DNA of 64,000 bases from Chryseobacterium cucumeris (GTDB lineage: Bacteria > Bacteroidota > Bacteroidia > Flavobacteriales > Weeksellaceae): contig NZ_LUVZ01000047.1 in the NCBI RefSeq assembly GCF_001593385.1, forward strand, positions 1 to 64,000, written 5' to 3'. The notes beneath the pieces are model-generated. The model made no database searches, had not been told where the DNA came from, and was given only the letters and a program-made list of their open reading frames with translations. Shown piece by piece: positions 45,638 through 50,721 of this stretch; the stretch's first letter is position 1, and the number at the start of each line of letters is the position of its first letter. The position numbers and the translations under genes are program-made.

Positions 45638-46090
45638 CTAGAACAGTTTACTCAATATTCTGAAACGATAATCAAAGATATGTTCCAGTTTCTTTTTCAC
45701 GAAAAGATCGTGGACAATTTCTCCTAAAAACCCCATGGGAAGTTCATAGTCTATAGTATCCTTCATCAATACGCCTTCTTCATTGGAAATAAATTCATGA
45801 TAGTGGTTCCATAGTTTGTACGGACCTTTTTTCTGAAAATCAATGAAACTTTTCTGAAAATCTACGTGGGTGATCTCCGTCTGCCACTTCATTTTGATAC
45901 CGAATAATGGAGAAACATAATAATCGATGAGCATTCCTTCAAAGATTTCATCATCTTCCATTTCCGTTAATACGACGAAGCCCATATCCTTCGGAGTAAT
46001 TTCTGAAAGATTGTTTGCGGAGGAAAAGAACTTCCAGGCGGTTTCTATATCACAATTGAGCTGTTGTTCACGGAAAAGAGTATGCTTCAT
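45638..46090 (-). CDS. SRPBCC-family protein
   Basis: 150 residues with the START/Bet v1-like pattern: FREQQLNCDIETAWKFFSSANNLSEITP at the start, GFVVLTEMEDDEIFEG, then YHEFISNEEGVLMKDTIDYELPMG and a long C-terminal helix. It is a small soluble ligand-binding protein; homologues are often annotated as cell-division inhibitor-like. The ligand is unknown. It is convergent with nothing and lies 51 bp beyond the L,D-transpeptidase-like gene start. Confidence 0.8.
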   Translation of the reverse strand: MKHTLFREQQLNCDIETAWKFFSSANNLSEITPKDMGFVVLTEMEDDEIFEGMLIDYYVSPLFGIKMKWQTEITHVDFQKSFIDFQKKGPYKLWNHYHEFISNEEGVLMKDTIDYELPMGFLGEIVHDLFVKKKLEHIFDYRFRILSKLF

Positions 46091-46141
46091 AAGACCGGAT
46101 CAGTTTATCTGATTGTTGTCAAACAAATGTATGACAAAGAT

Positions 46142-46789
46142 TTAATTATAGATCCACATCAGTACTGGTTTTCCCGATTTCTGAATCATCGGATCAATTT
46201 CTTTCATGGCATTGTTGGAAACAGTCGGGCAGCCCCATCCTTCGGGAGATCCGTCAGGAAACACTTCCTCATCGCTCATAAGATCCCAGGAATGAAAGAC
46301 AATATATCTTTTTAAAGCATTGCTGTTGGTTTCTTCAAGGCCGTTCATAAGGTATTTTATATTGATTCCCCAATCGCTGTAGCCTCTTCCTTCCAATTTA
46401 TACTTTCCTAAAGATGAAAGGTGGCTTCCATCTTCATTGCTGAAACCCGGATTGGCTTTAGAATTATCTTTACTCCAGGAATTGGAACCGCAACCATGCC
46501 CTACCAGATATTTTTTAGTAATCTTATTATTCTTAAAATCCCAGACAAAAAAACGGTTAACGCCGGAGTGAAGGCTCATATCAATGAGAATACAGAAATC
46601 TTTGCTGAGGTTCTTTGAAGCACAGAATTTCAGGGCTTCTTCTGCTTTTATTTTTAATTTAGAAAAATCAGCTTCAGGTTTCTTTTCTGCAACTACTGAT
46701 GTTTCTACCGTTCTTATTGTATTATTTCTCCTTTCCTGAGAACATGAACAGATCCAAAAGATGGTGAAAAACCAAAAAACCTTTTTCAT
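46142..46789 (-). CDS. L,D-transpeptidase-like lipoprotein (YkuD_2 type)
   Basis: 215 residues. A lipoprotein signal ends at WICSC. The catalytic region has YIVFHSWDL (His), then SPEGWGCPTVSN with the Gly-Cys nucleophile, as in the murein L,D-transpeptidase catalytic domain family of Bacteroidetes. LIDMSLHSGVNRFFVWDF is the typical first strand of that fold. It probably acts on peptidoglycan in the periplasm. It follows the DUF2459 gene by 3 bp, so they are co-transcribed. Confidence 0.85.
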   Translation of the reverse strand: MKKVFWFFTIFWICSCSQERRNNTIRTVETSVVAEKKPEADFSKLKIKAEEALKFCASKNLSKDFCILIDMSLHSGVNRFFVWDFKNNKITKKYLVGHGCGSNSWSKDNSKANPGFSNEDGSHLSSLGKYKLEGRGYSDWGINIKYLMNGLEETNSNALKRYIVFHSWDLMSDEEVFPDGSPEGWGCPTVSNNAMKEIDPMIQKSGKPVLMWIYN

Positions 46790-46792
46790 ATT

Positions 46793-47476
46793 TTATTTAT
46801 AATGCTGAAAGATTCCGAAATCAGAAGGAGTCCAAAGTGCGGCTTTTTGCCCTGCTGCCTTCAAAGCGTTATTTGACCAGGTGTTGCAGGTATACAGAAA
46901 GCTGTAAGTCCCTTTTGCATCATAAAAAGCATCGTTATCACCGTAAACAGCATTGGTAGGGATCAGCATAAAATTTCTGTTCTCATCTCTGTCAAATTTA
47001 TCTTCCACATATTTCACCAGATTTTCATACTGACTTCTGCTAATCATAATCATTTTACAGTCATCGCCTTCTTTCATCGTATTATAATAAGTACAGTGCA
47101 TAGCTGAATCACTTAGCCAGAATGCAGCCTTTATAGCTGTTGAAAATTTCAGGTCTGCCCACGTAGGTGTATCAAGATAAAAACCTTTATCCCCCCATCC
47201 TATCCCTATATACTGATAGTCTGTTCTTTTTGATTTTGTATTGGCAAAAGGAATTTTCCGGCTCCAGTCCTGCAAATCGTTTTTCACAGGCATTACAATA
47301 TCGGTATGCACTCCGTTGGTATAAATGTAGATTGGAATTTCTTTCTTTTGTCCGTCATCTTTTGCGGAAACAGGAATATAGGGAATCAACAACCCAAGGA
47401 TGACATAAATAATCACAATCCCTAAAATAATTCCTATCACTTTCAGGAGATACATAAATATTGTTTTCACAGTCAT
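46793..47476 (-). CDS. DUF2459 (TIGR02117) family membrane protein
   Basis: 227 residues with one N-terminal membrane helix (VIGIILGIVIIYVILGLLI). The conserved features are YTNGVHTDIVMPV, YIGIGWGDKGFYLDTPTW and CNTWSNNALKAAG, which identify the DUF2459 family. The C..N-H-like residues give it the look of a cysteine-hydrolase fold. No function is established. It is 3 bp upstream of the L,D-transpeptidase-like gene, so a cell-wall role is possible. Confidence 0.85.
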   Translation of the reverse strand: MTVKTIFMYLLKVIGIILGIVIIYVILGLLIPYIPVSAKDDGQKKEIPIYIYTNGVHTDIVMPVKNDLQDWSRKIPFANTKSKRTDYQYIGIGWGDKGFYLDTPTWADLKFSTAIKAAFWLSDSAMHCTYYNTMKEGDDCKMIMISRSQYENLVKYVEDKFDRDENRNFMLIPTNAVYGDNDAFYDAKGTYSFLYTCNTWSNNALKAAGQKAALWTPSDFGIFQHYK

Positions 47477-47568
47477 GTTTTTTAATAAAATTTAATCTTT
47501 AATTTTTAGTAAAAGTATTTGTTTTAATCGAAAAATTAGCTATATTTAGTTACGAAATATTCACAAAT

Positions 47569-47649
47569 ATGCGTAAAAATACTAAATCCCAAAAAAGGTT
47601 TAAAGTAAGAGTAAAAACTGCTCCTAAAAGAATACAAAAAAGACGTTGA
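47569..47649 (+). CDS. Very basic 26-residue protein
   Basis: ATG at 47569, stop TGA at 47647-47649. The peptide starts MRKNTKSQKRFKVRVKTAPK and ends in IQKRR, with 13 Lys/Arg among 26 residues. A TATATTTA box (47541-47548) lies 20 bases upstream and a strong terminator begins at the stop codon, so it is packaged as a single-gene unit. Composition resembles a ribosomal or nucleic-acid-binding peptide such as the Thx class. I do not recognise it by name. It lies in a gap of about 360 bp between larger genes. Confidence 0.55.
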   Translation: MRKNTKSQKRFKVRVKTAPKRIQKRR

Positions 47650-47692
47650 TTTTCGGTGAGATTCTGATCTCCTGAAAATCAATTTTTCTTTA
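47646..47692 (+). terminator. Terminator of the 26-residue gene
   Basis: TTGATTTTC (47646-47654) pairs with GAAAATCAA (47674-47682), followed by TTTTTCTTTAT. The stem includes the stop codon. Confidence 0.75.
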
Positions 47693-47836
47693 TAGGAAAG
47701 GCTTTTTAAGAAACTTATTAATGTAAATCTTCACCTCCTTAAAGCGAAAAATTTAAGGAATGGTCGACCATCAGCTCTGGTTTGGAACTTCAAAAAATTC
47801 CAAAAGAGGGATTGTCACCAAAAGTTCAGAGAAAAC

Positions 47837-48775
47837 TCAGTCAGAAGATTTCTGTAAAAACTCAATATTTCTTTTGAGTCCTGTAAATTTAGTACGTTTT
47901 ACGGGAGACTTTCTAAAGATTTCTGAGAAAATTTCCTGAGTAAGTTCCTTCCATTCTCCTTTTTTGAAGTTTTTCAACGCTTCATTGGGTTGGAAGCGGC
48001 TCTGTTTGTTAGGCGCTGAGAACCTGTTCCAGGGACAAACATCCTGACAGATATCGCAGCCAAACATCCAGTCTTCCATTTTATCTTTAAAATAATCCGG
48101 GATTTCGCTTTTGAGTTCTATGGTTGCATAGGAAATGCAGCGGCTTCCATCTATAATTTTTTCAGAAACAATGGCATCTGTAGGACAGGCATCGATACAT
48201 TTTCTGCAGCTTCCACAATGATCTGTAGTGGCGTGGTCAGGAATCAGCTCCAGATCGCAGATGATTTCGGCCAGAAAATAAAAAGAACCGCTTTGTTTGG
48301 TAATGAGGTTGGCATTTTTCCCTACCCAGCCTATTCCTGATTTTTTAGCCCACGCTCTTTCCAAAACCGGCGCAGAATCTACAAAGACACGAAATCCAAA
48401 TTCCCCTATTTCTTCCTGCAGCTCTGCAACCATTTCACGGAGTATTTCTTTGATTACTTCATGATAGTCTTCTGCATAAGCATATTTTGAGATTTTAAAG
48501 TTCTCCAGCGTTGAAATTTTTTCTTCAGGAAAGTAATTGTAAGAAAGTGAAATCACAGATTTTGAACCTTCTACCAATAGTCTCGGATCAAGTCTTTTGT
48601 CGAAATGATTTTCCATATACTTCATTTCGCCGTTATAATTATTCTTCAGCCATTTTTCAAGATGAGGAGCTTCTTCCTCGAGAAAATCAGCTTTGGAAAT
48701 GCCACAACTCTGGAATCCAAAACTTTTTGCCTTGGACTTTATGAGTTGGGAATATTTTTCGGCACCAGCATTCAT
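47837..48775 (-). CDS. queG: Epoxyqueuosine reductase
   Basis: 312 residues from the ATG at 48775; a GTG lies three codons earlier. QueG features are [14 protein letters not shown] near the start, the catalytic Asp region [20 protein letters not shown], and two 4Fe-4S motifs: [12 protein letters not shown] and [12 protein letters not shown]. It performs the last step of queuosine formation in tRNA using cobalamin. No C-terminal HEAT-repeat domain is present, as in many bacteria. Confidence 0.94.
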
Positions 48776-48920
48776 TAATTTCACACTGCAAAATTAAGAT
48801 TATTTTATCAATCTTCAGATTTATGCCAAAGTACCTCCCACGAATGGTTCTTTCTGAAAAAATTATGTTTTAATTAGGATTTTTTTCAAAAAAAAAATAC
48901 GTAATTTCGTTTCTAATTTA

Positions 48921-49238
48921 ATGTTTAAACCAACAACTATGTCTTTAATAGAAGTAATACAATCAGGAAACTATGAATTAATCGACGTTCGTGAGCCAAT
49001 GGAGCTTGAAATGGACGGTAATATAGATGGTGCTAAGAATATTCCTTTAGGTGAAGTAGAAGACAGACAGGATGAGATCCTATCTATTGAAAAGCCTGTT
49101 ATCTTATTCTGCAGAAGCGGAAACAGAAGCGGAAAAGCATTGGATTATCTTAACGCTCAAGGATTAAAGGACGGTTATAACGGCGGAGGCTGGGCTGAGC
49201 TGAAGGCTGTTCTGGAAGCAAATCAGGGAACTTTTTAA
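48921..49238 (+). CDS. Single-domain rhodanese-like protein
   Basis: 105 residues (99 from the M at 48939). YELIDVREPMELEMDG and ILFCRSGNRSGKAL show the rhodanese fold with the catalytic Cys in the CRSGNRSG loop. It probably transfers sulfur in the cytoplasm; the acceptor is unknown. The HD protein follows 27 bp later on the same strand. Confidence 0.9.
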   Translation: MFKPTTMSLIEVIQSGNYELIDVREPMELEMDGNIDGAKNIPLGEVEDRQDEILSIEKPVILFCRSGNRSGKALDYLNAQGLKDGYNGGGWAELKAVLEANQGTF

Positions 49239-49265
49239 AAGTTCCTTTTTTTATATCTTATTTCT

Positions 49266-49886
49266 ATGAATCTGAAAAACTATTTTGAAACGCTTTGTTC
49301 TTCTTTCACCGAAAACAAACAGCTGATCGACAGTCTGTGGAACGAAGTTGAAACCAGATATTCTGAAAAAGGCAGACACTACCACAATCTTCTTCATCTT
49401 GAAAATATGTTCAGTGAACTCGAAGCTGTGAAAAGCGATATTTCAGATTTTACAGCCATTTCTTTCTCCGTGTTTTACCATGACGTTATCTACGATGCTT
49501 CTTCTAAGTCTAATGAGGAAAAAAGTGCGGCCAAAACAGAAAAAAGGCTTGGAGAACTTCATTTGAACAAAGACAGAATTTCACTCATTTCTGCGCAGAT
49601 TCTAGCAACAAAATCACATCATCAATCCGATAATGAAGACACCAATTATCTGCTTGATGCCGATCTTTCTGTATTGGGTAAAGATTTTAAAACTTATTTA
49701 GAATATACTCAGAATATCAGAAAAGAGTATTCTATTTATCCTGACTTCCTTTATAAACCGGGACGAAAAAAAGTGCTCAAACATTTCCTTGAACTTGAAA
49801 GTATCTTTAAAACAGAATATTTTAAGGAAAGATATGAAGCCCGGGCAAAGGAAAATATTGCTGCCGAGCTTCAGTTATTGAAATAA
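49266..49886 (+). CDS. HD-type metal-dependent phosphohydrolase-like protein
   Basis: 206 residues. RHYHNLLHLENMFSEL (first His) and FSVFYHDVIYDASSKSNEEKSA (HD pair) match the predicted HD hydrolase family COG4339, with LLDADLSVLG as the late Asp. It is soluble; the substrate is unknown. It follows the rhodanese gene and ends before a hairpin terminator. Confidence 0.85.
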   Translation: MNLKNYFETLCSSFTENKQLIDSLWNEVETRYSEKGRHYHNLLHLENMFSELEAVKSDISDFTAISFSVFYHDVIYDASSKSNEEKSAAKTEKRLGELHLNKDRISLISAQILATKSHHQSDNEDTNYLLDADLSVLGKDFKTYLEYTQNIRKEYSIYPDFLYKPGRKKVLKHFLELESIFKTEYFKERYEARAKENIAAELQLLK

Positions 49887-49908
49887 AAATAGATCAATCT
49901 GTTGATTT

Positions 49909-49939
49909 AACAAAGACACCCGTTAACAGGTGTCTTGTT
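49909..49939. terminator. Hairpin between convergent genes
   Basis: GACACC (49915-49920) pairs with GGTGTC (49929-49934), with flanking AACAA and TTGTT extending the stem across mismatches. It lies between the HD gene and the hydrolase gene. Confidence 0.55.
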
Positions 49940-49950
49940 GATATTGTATA

Positions 49951-50721
49951 TTAGAAATAATTGCTGATAAATCCGGCCGCTTTCTCCAATACAGGCTCAG
50001 GCACTTCTTTATGCGGTGTATGGCCTATACCGGGAATGATATATTTTTCTGCACTTCCACCGACCTGAGTAACTGTTTTTTCTACCTGATCCAATGTGCC
50101 ATATTCATCGGCTTCTCCCTGAATAAATAACAATGGAGCTGTAATATCTTTCAGGAAATACTCTATATTCCAGGTTCTGTAATCATCCCGTGTCCAGGTT
50201 TCTGTCCAGGCTCTGAAAAGCATTTCTACTTTATCACCATGATATTTCTGCAAACGTTCCGGAAGATTGGTCGTTTTGTAAGCTTCCCATGCGTCGTAAA
50301 CTCCTTTTAAAGTTGTTTCTTCTACAAAAATATGACCAGCTTCACAGATAACGGCTTTTATTCTTTCGGGATATTTTGCAGCGGTGATCAAAGCAATTGT
50401 TCCCCCATCACTGTGCCCGAACAGGACAACGTTATCAATATTCATTTCAGTCAATACATCATTCAACAGATCTGCTTCCAGTTCCATATAATGTATCGGC
50501 CTCTCATGAGTAAGCATAGGAAACGATTTCCCATAGCCTAAACGGTCATAAGCAAGAGTATTGCATTGTGTGATCTCAGCCAGCTTAGCCGGAAAATCTC
50601 TCCAGAGCTGCACAGATCCTAATGAATCATGCAGAAAAACAATCGTAGGCCTGTCTCGAAGTTGATTATTGTGTTCGATATATAATTTTTGTCCCTTTAC
50701 ATCAATTATTCTTCCCTCCAT
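49951..50721 (-). CDS. Alpha/beta hydrolase
   Basis: 256 residues. TIVFLHDSLGSVQLWRDFP (oxyanion strand), the nucleophile elbow VVLFGHSDGGTIAL with Ser, GEADEYGTL (acid) and GIGHTPHKE (His) form a typical catalytic triad. No signal peptide. It follows the nitronate monooxygenase gene by 14 bp on the same strand. The substrate is unknown. Confidence 0.9.
   Translation of the reverse strand: MEGRIIDVKGQKLYIEHNNQLRDRPTIVFLHDSLGSVQLWRDFPAKLAEITQCNTLAYDRLGYGKSFPMLTHERPIHYMELEADLLNDVLTEMNIDNVVLFGHSDGGTIALITAAKYPERIKAVICEAGHIFVEETTLKGVYDAWEAYKTTNLPERLQKYHGDKVEMLFRAWTETWTRDDYRTWNIEYFLKDITAPLLFIQGEADEYGTLDQVEKTVTQVGGSAEKYIIPGIGHTPHKEVPEPVLEKAAGFISNYF

Follow-up and report, generated by a model that had tools for sequence, protein, structure and literature searches.

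A 26-codon gene for a half-basic peptide is conserved within Chryseobacterium and in part of the wider family

Introduction

Does a frame of only 26 codons, lying between two longer genes of Chryseobacterium cucumeris, constitute a gene in its own right, and what could its strongly basic product bind? We addressed this question in a stretch of 64,000 nucleotides at the start of contig NZ_LUVZ01000047.1, hereafter the window. The frame occupies 47569..47649 on the forward strand and encodes MRKNTKSQKRFKVRVKTAPKRIQKRR, followed by a TGA stop. Lys and Arg account for 13 of its 26 residues, so that both the coordinates and the composition are exactly those of an earlier sequence-only reading. That reading had further proposed that the frame is an autonomous gene with its own promoter and terminator, and that its product is a ribosome- or nucleic-acid-associated peptide, possibly widespread and unannotated.

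Results

Conservation and coding constraint

A search with the single peptide sequence recovered the frame in all 36 same-genus genomes, that of C. cucumeris included, with one match each at E values from 2e-10 to 1e-5; none of the 23 genomes in a set taken at the level of other orders matched. The reversed peptide, which has the same composition, reached E <= 1 in 4 of 59 genomes, with a best E value of 0.078.

Comparison of synonymous with non-synonymous change revealed the coding constraint that the sequence-only reading had put forward as a check. Across the 70 distinct coding sequences that 80 named loci of Chryseobacterium provide, pN/pS was 0.17 in this frame (pS 0.335, pN 0.058) against 0.42-1.31 in the other five (0.95, 0.80, 0.68, 1.31 and 0.42), and the Jukes-Cantor dN/dS was approximately 0.14, these ratios being pooled over non-independent pairs. 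These loci, the best 80 among 131 relatives, were recovered by matching a pattern derived from the peptide core and are thus uninformative on the invariance of that core. At 79 of them the TGA stop falls at the same position, the exception (L149) being frameshifted near its end. Two alternative frames are wholly stopped and one nearly so, while two antisense frames carry stops in 28 and 7 of the 70 copies.

Purifying selection acts on the protein and is specific to this reading frame. Altogether 103 ORFs of at least 20 aa overlap the 7.5 kb around the gene, a density that would favour reading the frame as a chance product; conservation, however, excludes such an origin, and together with the frame-specific selection and the reversed-peptide control it leaves a chance open reading frame vanishingly improbable.

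One antisense frame (47536-47682) is open in 63 of the 70 distinct copies and has a pN/pS of 0.42, probably as a side effect of the sense codons. It is under weaker constraint than the sense frame, and we do not put it forward as a gene.

An invariant basic core

Residue-level conservation was assessed on peptides collected with no motif selection, which gave 81 distinct sequences from 137 loci, 75 of them with 26 residues. This count used 137 of 141 loci, some genomes being represented twice; L084, L089, L091 and L093 were dropped because no suitable ATG lay close to the predicted position. The peptide alignment and the synonymous codon variation define a core at codons 14-21 (47608..47631, forward strand), which reads R-V-K-T-A-P-K-R here and R-[VI]-K-x-[AP]-P-K-R across the family.

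Six core residues, namely R14, K16, A18, P19, K20 and R21, are invariant in all 75 distinct 26-residue peptides, and position 15 is Val in 73 and Ile in 2. Proline replaces alanine at position 18 in two of the six longer peptide versions. Among the same 75 peptides, Lys and Arg exchange at position 25 (50 Lys, 25 Arg) and also at position 10, and position 12 holds Lys in 69 and Thr in 6; at positions 14, 16, 20 and 21 they never exchange. The codons at fixed residues vary nonetheless: 110 distinct coding sequences use six Arg codons at position 14, four Ala codons at 18 and four Pro codons at 19. Fixed residues with varying codons indicate selection on residue identity, beyond charge alone, and the core is thus likely to make specific contacts rather than contribute bulk charge. 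In addition, hydrophobic residues at 11, 13 and 15 alternate with basic ones at 12, 14 and 16, which suggests an extended strand.

Lys and Arg make up about 48% of residues across the peptide family, and acidic residues occur in 2 of the 81 distinct peptides, one in each. This composition, together with the invariant basic core, would fit the proposed ribosome or nucleic-acid association. A short, highly cationic peptide could also be a secreted or membrane-active, antimicrobial-like product. We consider that reading very improbable, since inspection of the sequence by eye found no signal-like stretch and few hydrophobic residues, and since the core is conserved rather than diversifying (dN/dS 0.14).

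Genomic context

The gene lies between a divergent upstream neighbour encoding a DUF2459 protein (46793..47476, reverse strand; Pfam PF09601, E 5e-67) and a convergent downstream neighbour, the epoxyqueuosine reductase gene queG (47837..48784, reverse strand; Pfam PF08331, E 9e-21). This arrangement recurs elsewhere, with divergent DUF2459 upstream at 80 of 86 loci and convergent queG downstream at 78 of 86. The 86 loci include 59 from the genus and omit 7 that a core-motif filter removed, and because their flanks span only 500 or 1500 bases, neighbours that were missed may sit past the flank. In two genomes (L224 in G113 and L237 in G096) the peptide gene is found on the far side of DUF2459 and convergent with it, a relocation that fits a self-contained unit. 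No ribosomal protein gene was seen adjoining the peptide gene among the neighbours from 45638 to 50721 of the window, and searches of the window returned nothing from Rfam at gathering scores and no tRNA from ARAGORN.

Promoter and 5′ leader

Upstream of the frame, the window carries a -33 element TTTG (47518..47521, forward strand) and, after 19 nt, a -7 element TATATTTA (47541..47548, forward strand), both belonging to a conserved upstream pattern. The promoter-like box that had been noted 20 bases upstream is borne out, as TATATTTA ends 20 nt before the ATG and a -7 box is present in all 99 distinct upstream regions from the genus, against 10.5 expected from block shuffles. In upstream regions from other genera the corresponding figures are 29 of 52 and 6.4. 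The full pattern TT(T)G, 17-21 nt, TAHHTTTR occurs in 89 of 99 distinct genus regions (1.5 expected) and in 16 of 52 other-genus regions (1.3 expected).

The pair TTTG/TANNTTTG is the consensus of the housekeeping sigma factor of the phylum according to a passage of PMC6847099, which also describes the -33 motif as far weaker in evidence than the -7 motif and places the start site of probable promoters 4-5 nt past the -7 element. By this spacing, transcription would begin at about 47553 and leave a short, A-rich 5′ leader (47553..47568, forward strand) without a Shine-Dalgarno sequence. Of 122 distinct upstream regions, 91 have adenine at -3 and 76 have it at -6; both are listed among positive translation determinants of Flavobacterium johnsoniae in the same passage.

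The final base of the -7 element is A in the window and in every match that lies at the usual distance (TAHHTTTA, 18-23 nt from the ATG; 99/99 in the genus, 26/26 in other genera). For F. johnsoniae, PMC6847099 describes in one passage a near-invariant G at this base. The A may be a promoter variant of the whole lineage or a peculiarity of the peptide gene.

Terminator

Folding and covariation identify an intrinsic terminator at 47645..47692 (forward strand), formed by a bulged hairpin and a T-rich run. The terminator claimed earlier, with a 9-bp stem at the stop codon, is therefore present but stronger than described: the hairpin has 17 pairs and one bulge, and its stem starts 2 nt before the stop codon, which it overlaps. 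Its folding energy is -18.7 kcal/mol (z = -6.3), equalled by none of 200 shuffles. When the stretch beginning at the stop-codon position was folded for the 80 named loci, of which L149 is out of frame there, the minimum-energy stem began with the very first base in 76 of them.

Alignment of 37 terminator sequences (that of the window plus 36 from the 80 named loci) gave pairing in 92.6% of cells, with 5 of 15 pairs changed on both sides, and none of the slid registers of this alignment pairs as well. The two pairs beneath the bulge fail to form in 17 and 6 of the 37 sequences. The hairpin is weak or absent at many distant, other-genus loci, and at several of these loci the queG 3′ end is no more than 30 nt away.

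A short inferred transcript that ends in a terminator is also what one would expect of a regulatory leader peptide, or of a small RNA with an incidental frame. No same-strand gene lies close downstream, however, queG being convergent both in the window and at most loci, and the amino acids of this frame are what selection acts on most strongly; we give such a role scarcely any credence. Coding constraint, the gene's own promoter and terminator, and the relocation of the copy, among unchanged neighbours, in two genomes uphold the earlier description of an autonomous gene. The peptide gene is genuine, monocistronic, conserved and self-contained.

Distribution, gain and loss

In a sample of 197 family genomes, 115 had a match to the single sequence at E <= 1, the weakest of these resembling chance; with a profile, 110 matched at E <= 0.1, and they represented 11 of 33 genera. 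Strong profile matches (E <= 2.6e-7) were obtained in 108 of the 197 genomes, with one strong match per genome. The two borderline matches, at E 0.01-0.03, are a frameshifted true copy in G081 and a match in G187 that looks chance-like. All 50 same-genus genomes among those listed match; 67 of the non-matching genomes lie outside the listing, and those non-matching genomes that it includes begin below the genus. The rows from which this profile (A1) was made had passed a motif filter and comprised 31 of 56 distinct peptides, so very divergent relatives may escape it.

Beyond the family the signal fades. The profile matched 47 of 296 genomes in a sample of the order at E <= 0.1, and the only three matches outside the family (E 0.05-0.08) are partial and chance-like; in a sample of the class, the 3 of 295 genomes that matched at E <= 0.01 all belong to the same genus, with the genome of C. 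cucumeris among them. The prediction of a conserved small frame in Chryseobacterium and its relatives is confirmed by the 36 of 36 same-genus and 108 of 197 family genomes. The term widespread, by contrast, applies to Chryseobacterium and part of its family and does not extend to the samples of the order or the class.

A queG tree of 47 rows placed all 22 peptide-bearing rows, among which the frameshifted G081 was scored, in one branch of 32 rows (support 98/97) alongside 10 peptide-less rows. The tree requires seven state changes, three of them forced by starred branches; it is a midpoint-rooted tree of a single gene with weak inner branches. Its simplest reading would be one gain followed by several losses.

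Thirty genomes that lacked a strong match yielded 26 queG loci. DUF2459 adjoins queG at five of them, and no peptide frame lies between the two genes in four; the fifth is G081 (L197), whose copy has a frameshift within the core. A nonsense codon interrupts the copy of G193 (L093) at peptide position 11. Absence beside intact flanking genes, together with the nonsense and frameshift copies, indicates that the gene is dispensable, unlike those of core ribosomal proteins. The disrupted frames of L093, L197 and L149 are possibly decaying copies or sequencing errors.

The four peptide-less pairs bear on a further explanation, in which the peptide would act through its basic core to bind and tune another protein, such as an enzyme, a sigma factor or a membrane complex. 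Many bacterial small proteins act by binding and tuning protein partners, and the fixed core does suggest a specific partner. Yet neither QueG nor the DUF2459 protein seems to need the peptide where their genes adjoin without it, and the near absence of acidic residues, with about half the residues Lys or Arg, points to nucleic acid instead; on balance, we judge a protein partner quite unlikely.

Comparison with known families

Pfam, NCBIfam and PHROGs contain no match to the peptide, and to that extent the gene is unannotated, as had been suggested. PDB chains of at least 20 residues gave no match at E values up to 10, by sequence or by profile. We found no description of the peptide in open-licence papers, a scope that does not prove it undescribed.

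A close analogue in form is bTHX (S31e/Thx, TIGR04560), which has a similarly strongly basic core of 26 positions. The C. cucumeris genome encodes a bTHX above the TIGR04560 cut-off at a different locus (G000:C44:149094-149171), and that gene, like the peptide gene, stands alone and is followed by a hairpin and a T-run. The sequences differ, however: the NCBIfam scan of the peptide returned zero families, with TIGR04560 not among its hits, and a fraction of 0.08 of shuffles scored as well against bTHX, so that the similarity is not clearly beyond composition. Hits to TIGR04560 above its cut-off occur in 15 of the 17 peptide-bearing genomes and in 7 of the 18 that lack it, a difference confounded by kinship and of no evidential weight.

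Several observations concern bTHX itself. The C. cucumeris protein (L253) is 39 residues long, and its C-terminal extension includes acidic residues. Passages of PMC3353972 describe Thx as present in only some bacteria and, within the Bacteroidetes, in all except Capnocytophaga; the model exceeds its cut-off in 22 of 35 genomes here, fewer than the latter passage implies.

A second analogue, bS22 (AURKAIP1/COX24-like; F. johnsoniae 7JIL chain 5), is likewise basic and about 30 residues long. Similarity of the peptide to the bS22 of the same genome is no better than that of shuffles (0.58), and the bS22 gene (G000:C43:38977-39063) is separate from the peptide gene. Because Pfam COX24_C, which exceeded its cut-off in 0 of 35 genomes, is too distant for flavobacterial bS22, we used a bS22 sequence as query. 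It was found in all 28 genomes, whether the peptide was present or absent, which demonstrates that this type of search detects peptides this small. Across these genomes bS22 is 90-100% identical to the one query, and the peptide evolves faster. Judged by their sequences, the peptide belongs to neither bTHX nor bS22.

Some genomes hold bS22 roughly 6-16 kb from queG or the peptide gene, with the peptide present or not (G070, G084, G068, G123, G140, G062, G064, G069, G087 and G079), and in C. cucumeris the bS22 and peptide genes lie on different contigs. The PDB chain 7jil_5 represents one distinct 30-residue sequence that is named both S22 and L38 across five entries. A passage of PMC10618245 describes bS22 as a mini-protein left unannotated in Borrelia. 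It likewise presents bL38, of F. johnsoniae and Borrelia, as a recently recognised bacterial ribosomal protein unannotated as such in Borrelia, the two bL38 sequences being too dissimilar for translated search. On bL38, our comparison consists of the general PDB search by sequence and by profile, which had no match at E up to 10.

Other origins were rejected. The N-terminus of bL35 superficially resembles the peptide in a TKS...KRF string, but the score equals that of shuffles (0.47) and the bL35 of the genome lies elsewhere; the shuffle test rules out descent from bL35. The presence of both bTHX and bS22 in the C. cucumeris genome rules out a substitute for a missing copy of either. A phage origin is unsupported, the 8 pattern matches in viral contigs all being unrelated.

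Discussion

What, then, might the peptide do? Tiny proteins that are buried in rRNA, such as bTHX and bS22, typically have almost no acidic residues and keep their basic ones fixed. This likeness in composition favours an accessory ribosomal role, with other RNA or DNA binding next. We tentatively propose, with somewhat less than even confidence, that the peptide is a lineage-specific, dispensable, RNA-binding accessory mini-protein of the ribosome.

Under this proposal, the housekeeping sigma factor would direct transcription of an mRNA some 140 nt long, which would be translated without a Shine-Dalgarno sequence. The peptide would then lie extended inside a pocket of a structured RNA. Its alternating F-K-V-R-V-K would present a hydrophobic face and, opposite to it, a basic one, while specific contacts would be made by the core R-V-K-x-A-P-K-R. 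The likeliest site would be the ribosome, where the peptide may insert into rRNA and stabilise its fold, as bTHX or bS22 do.

Similarity to the bTHX gene of the same genome in size, composition and lone-gene layout counts for the ribosomal reading. Counting against it are the lack of clear similarity to bTHX, bS22 or bL35 beyond composition, the faster evolution than bS22, the gene losses and the absence of ribosomal neighbours among those seen. The restriction of the -7 box to 29 of 52 other-genus regions and the weak distant hairpins also weigh against the explanation that we favour.

The same composition and invariant basic core would equally suit a non-ribosomal nucleic-acid-binding peptide, for example an RNA chaperone or a nucleoid-associated peptide, and a dispensable, lineage-limited product accords with such a role. 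The strict identity of Arg or Lys at positions 14, 16, 20 and 21, however, points to one specific site rather than general coating, and we regard this alternative as rather unlikely.

The ribosomal proposal can also be taken further: the peptide may be a ribosomal protein with a single origin, in the ancestor of a clade that contains Chryseobacterium within one family; it would sit on most or all ribosomes of these bacteria, would have been overlooked because its gene has 26 codons, and would later have been lost repeatedly, which would leave natural pairs with and without the peptide. We view this fuller scenario as possible but doubtful.

Were the peptide ribosomal, a large bacterial genus would have one more protein in its ribosome, and ribosomes would be seen to both gain and lose lineage-specific mini-proteins. 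Ribosomal or not, it represents a conserved gene that is missing from the family libraries searched. That some genomes lack it while their flanking genes are intact makes for easy comparisons.
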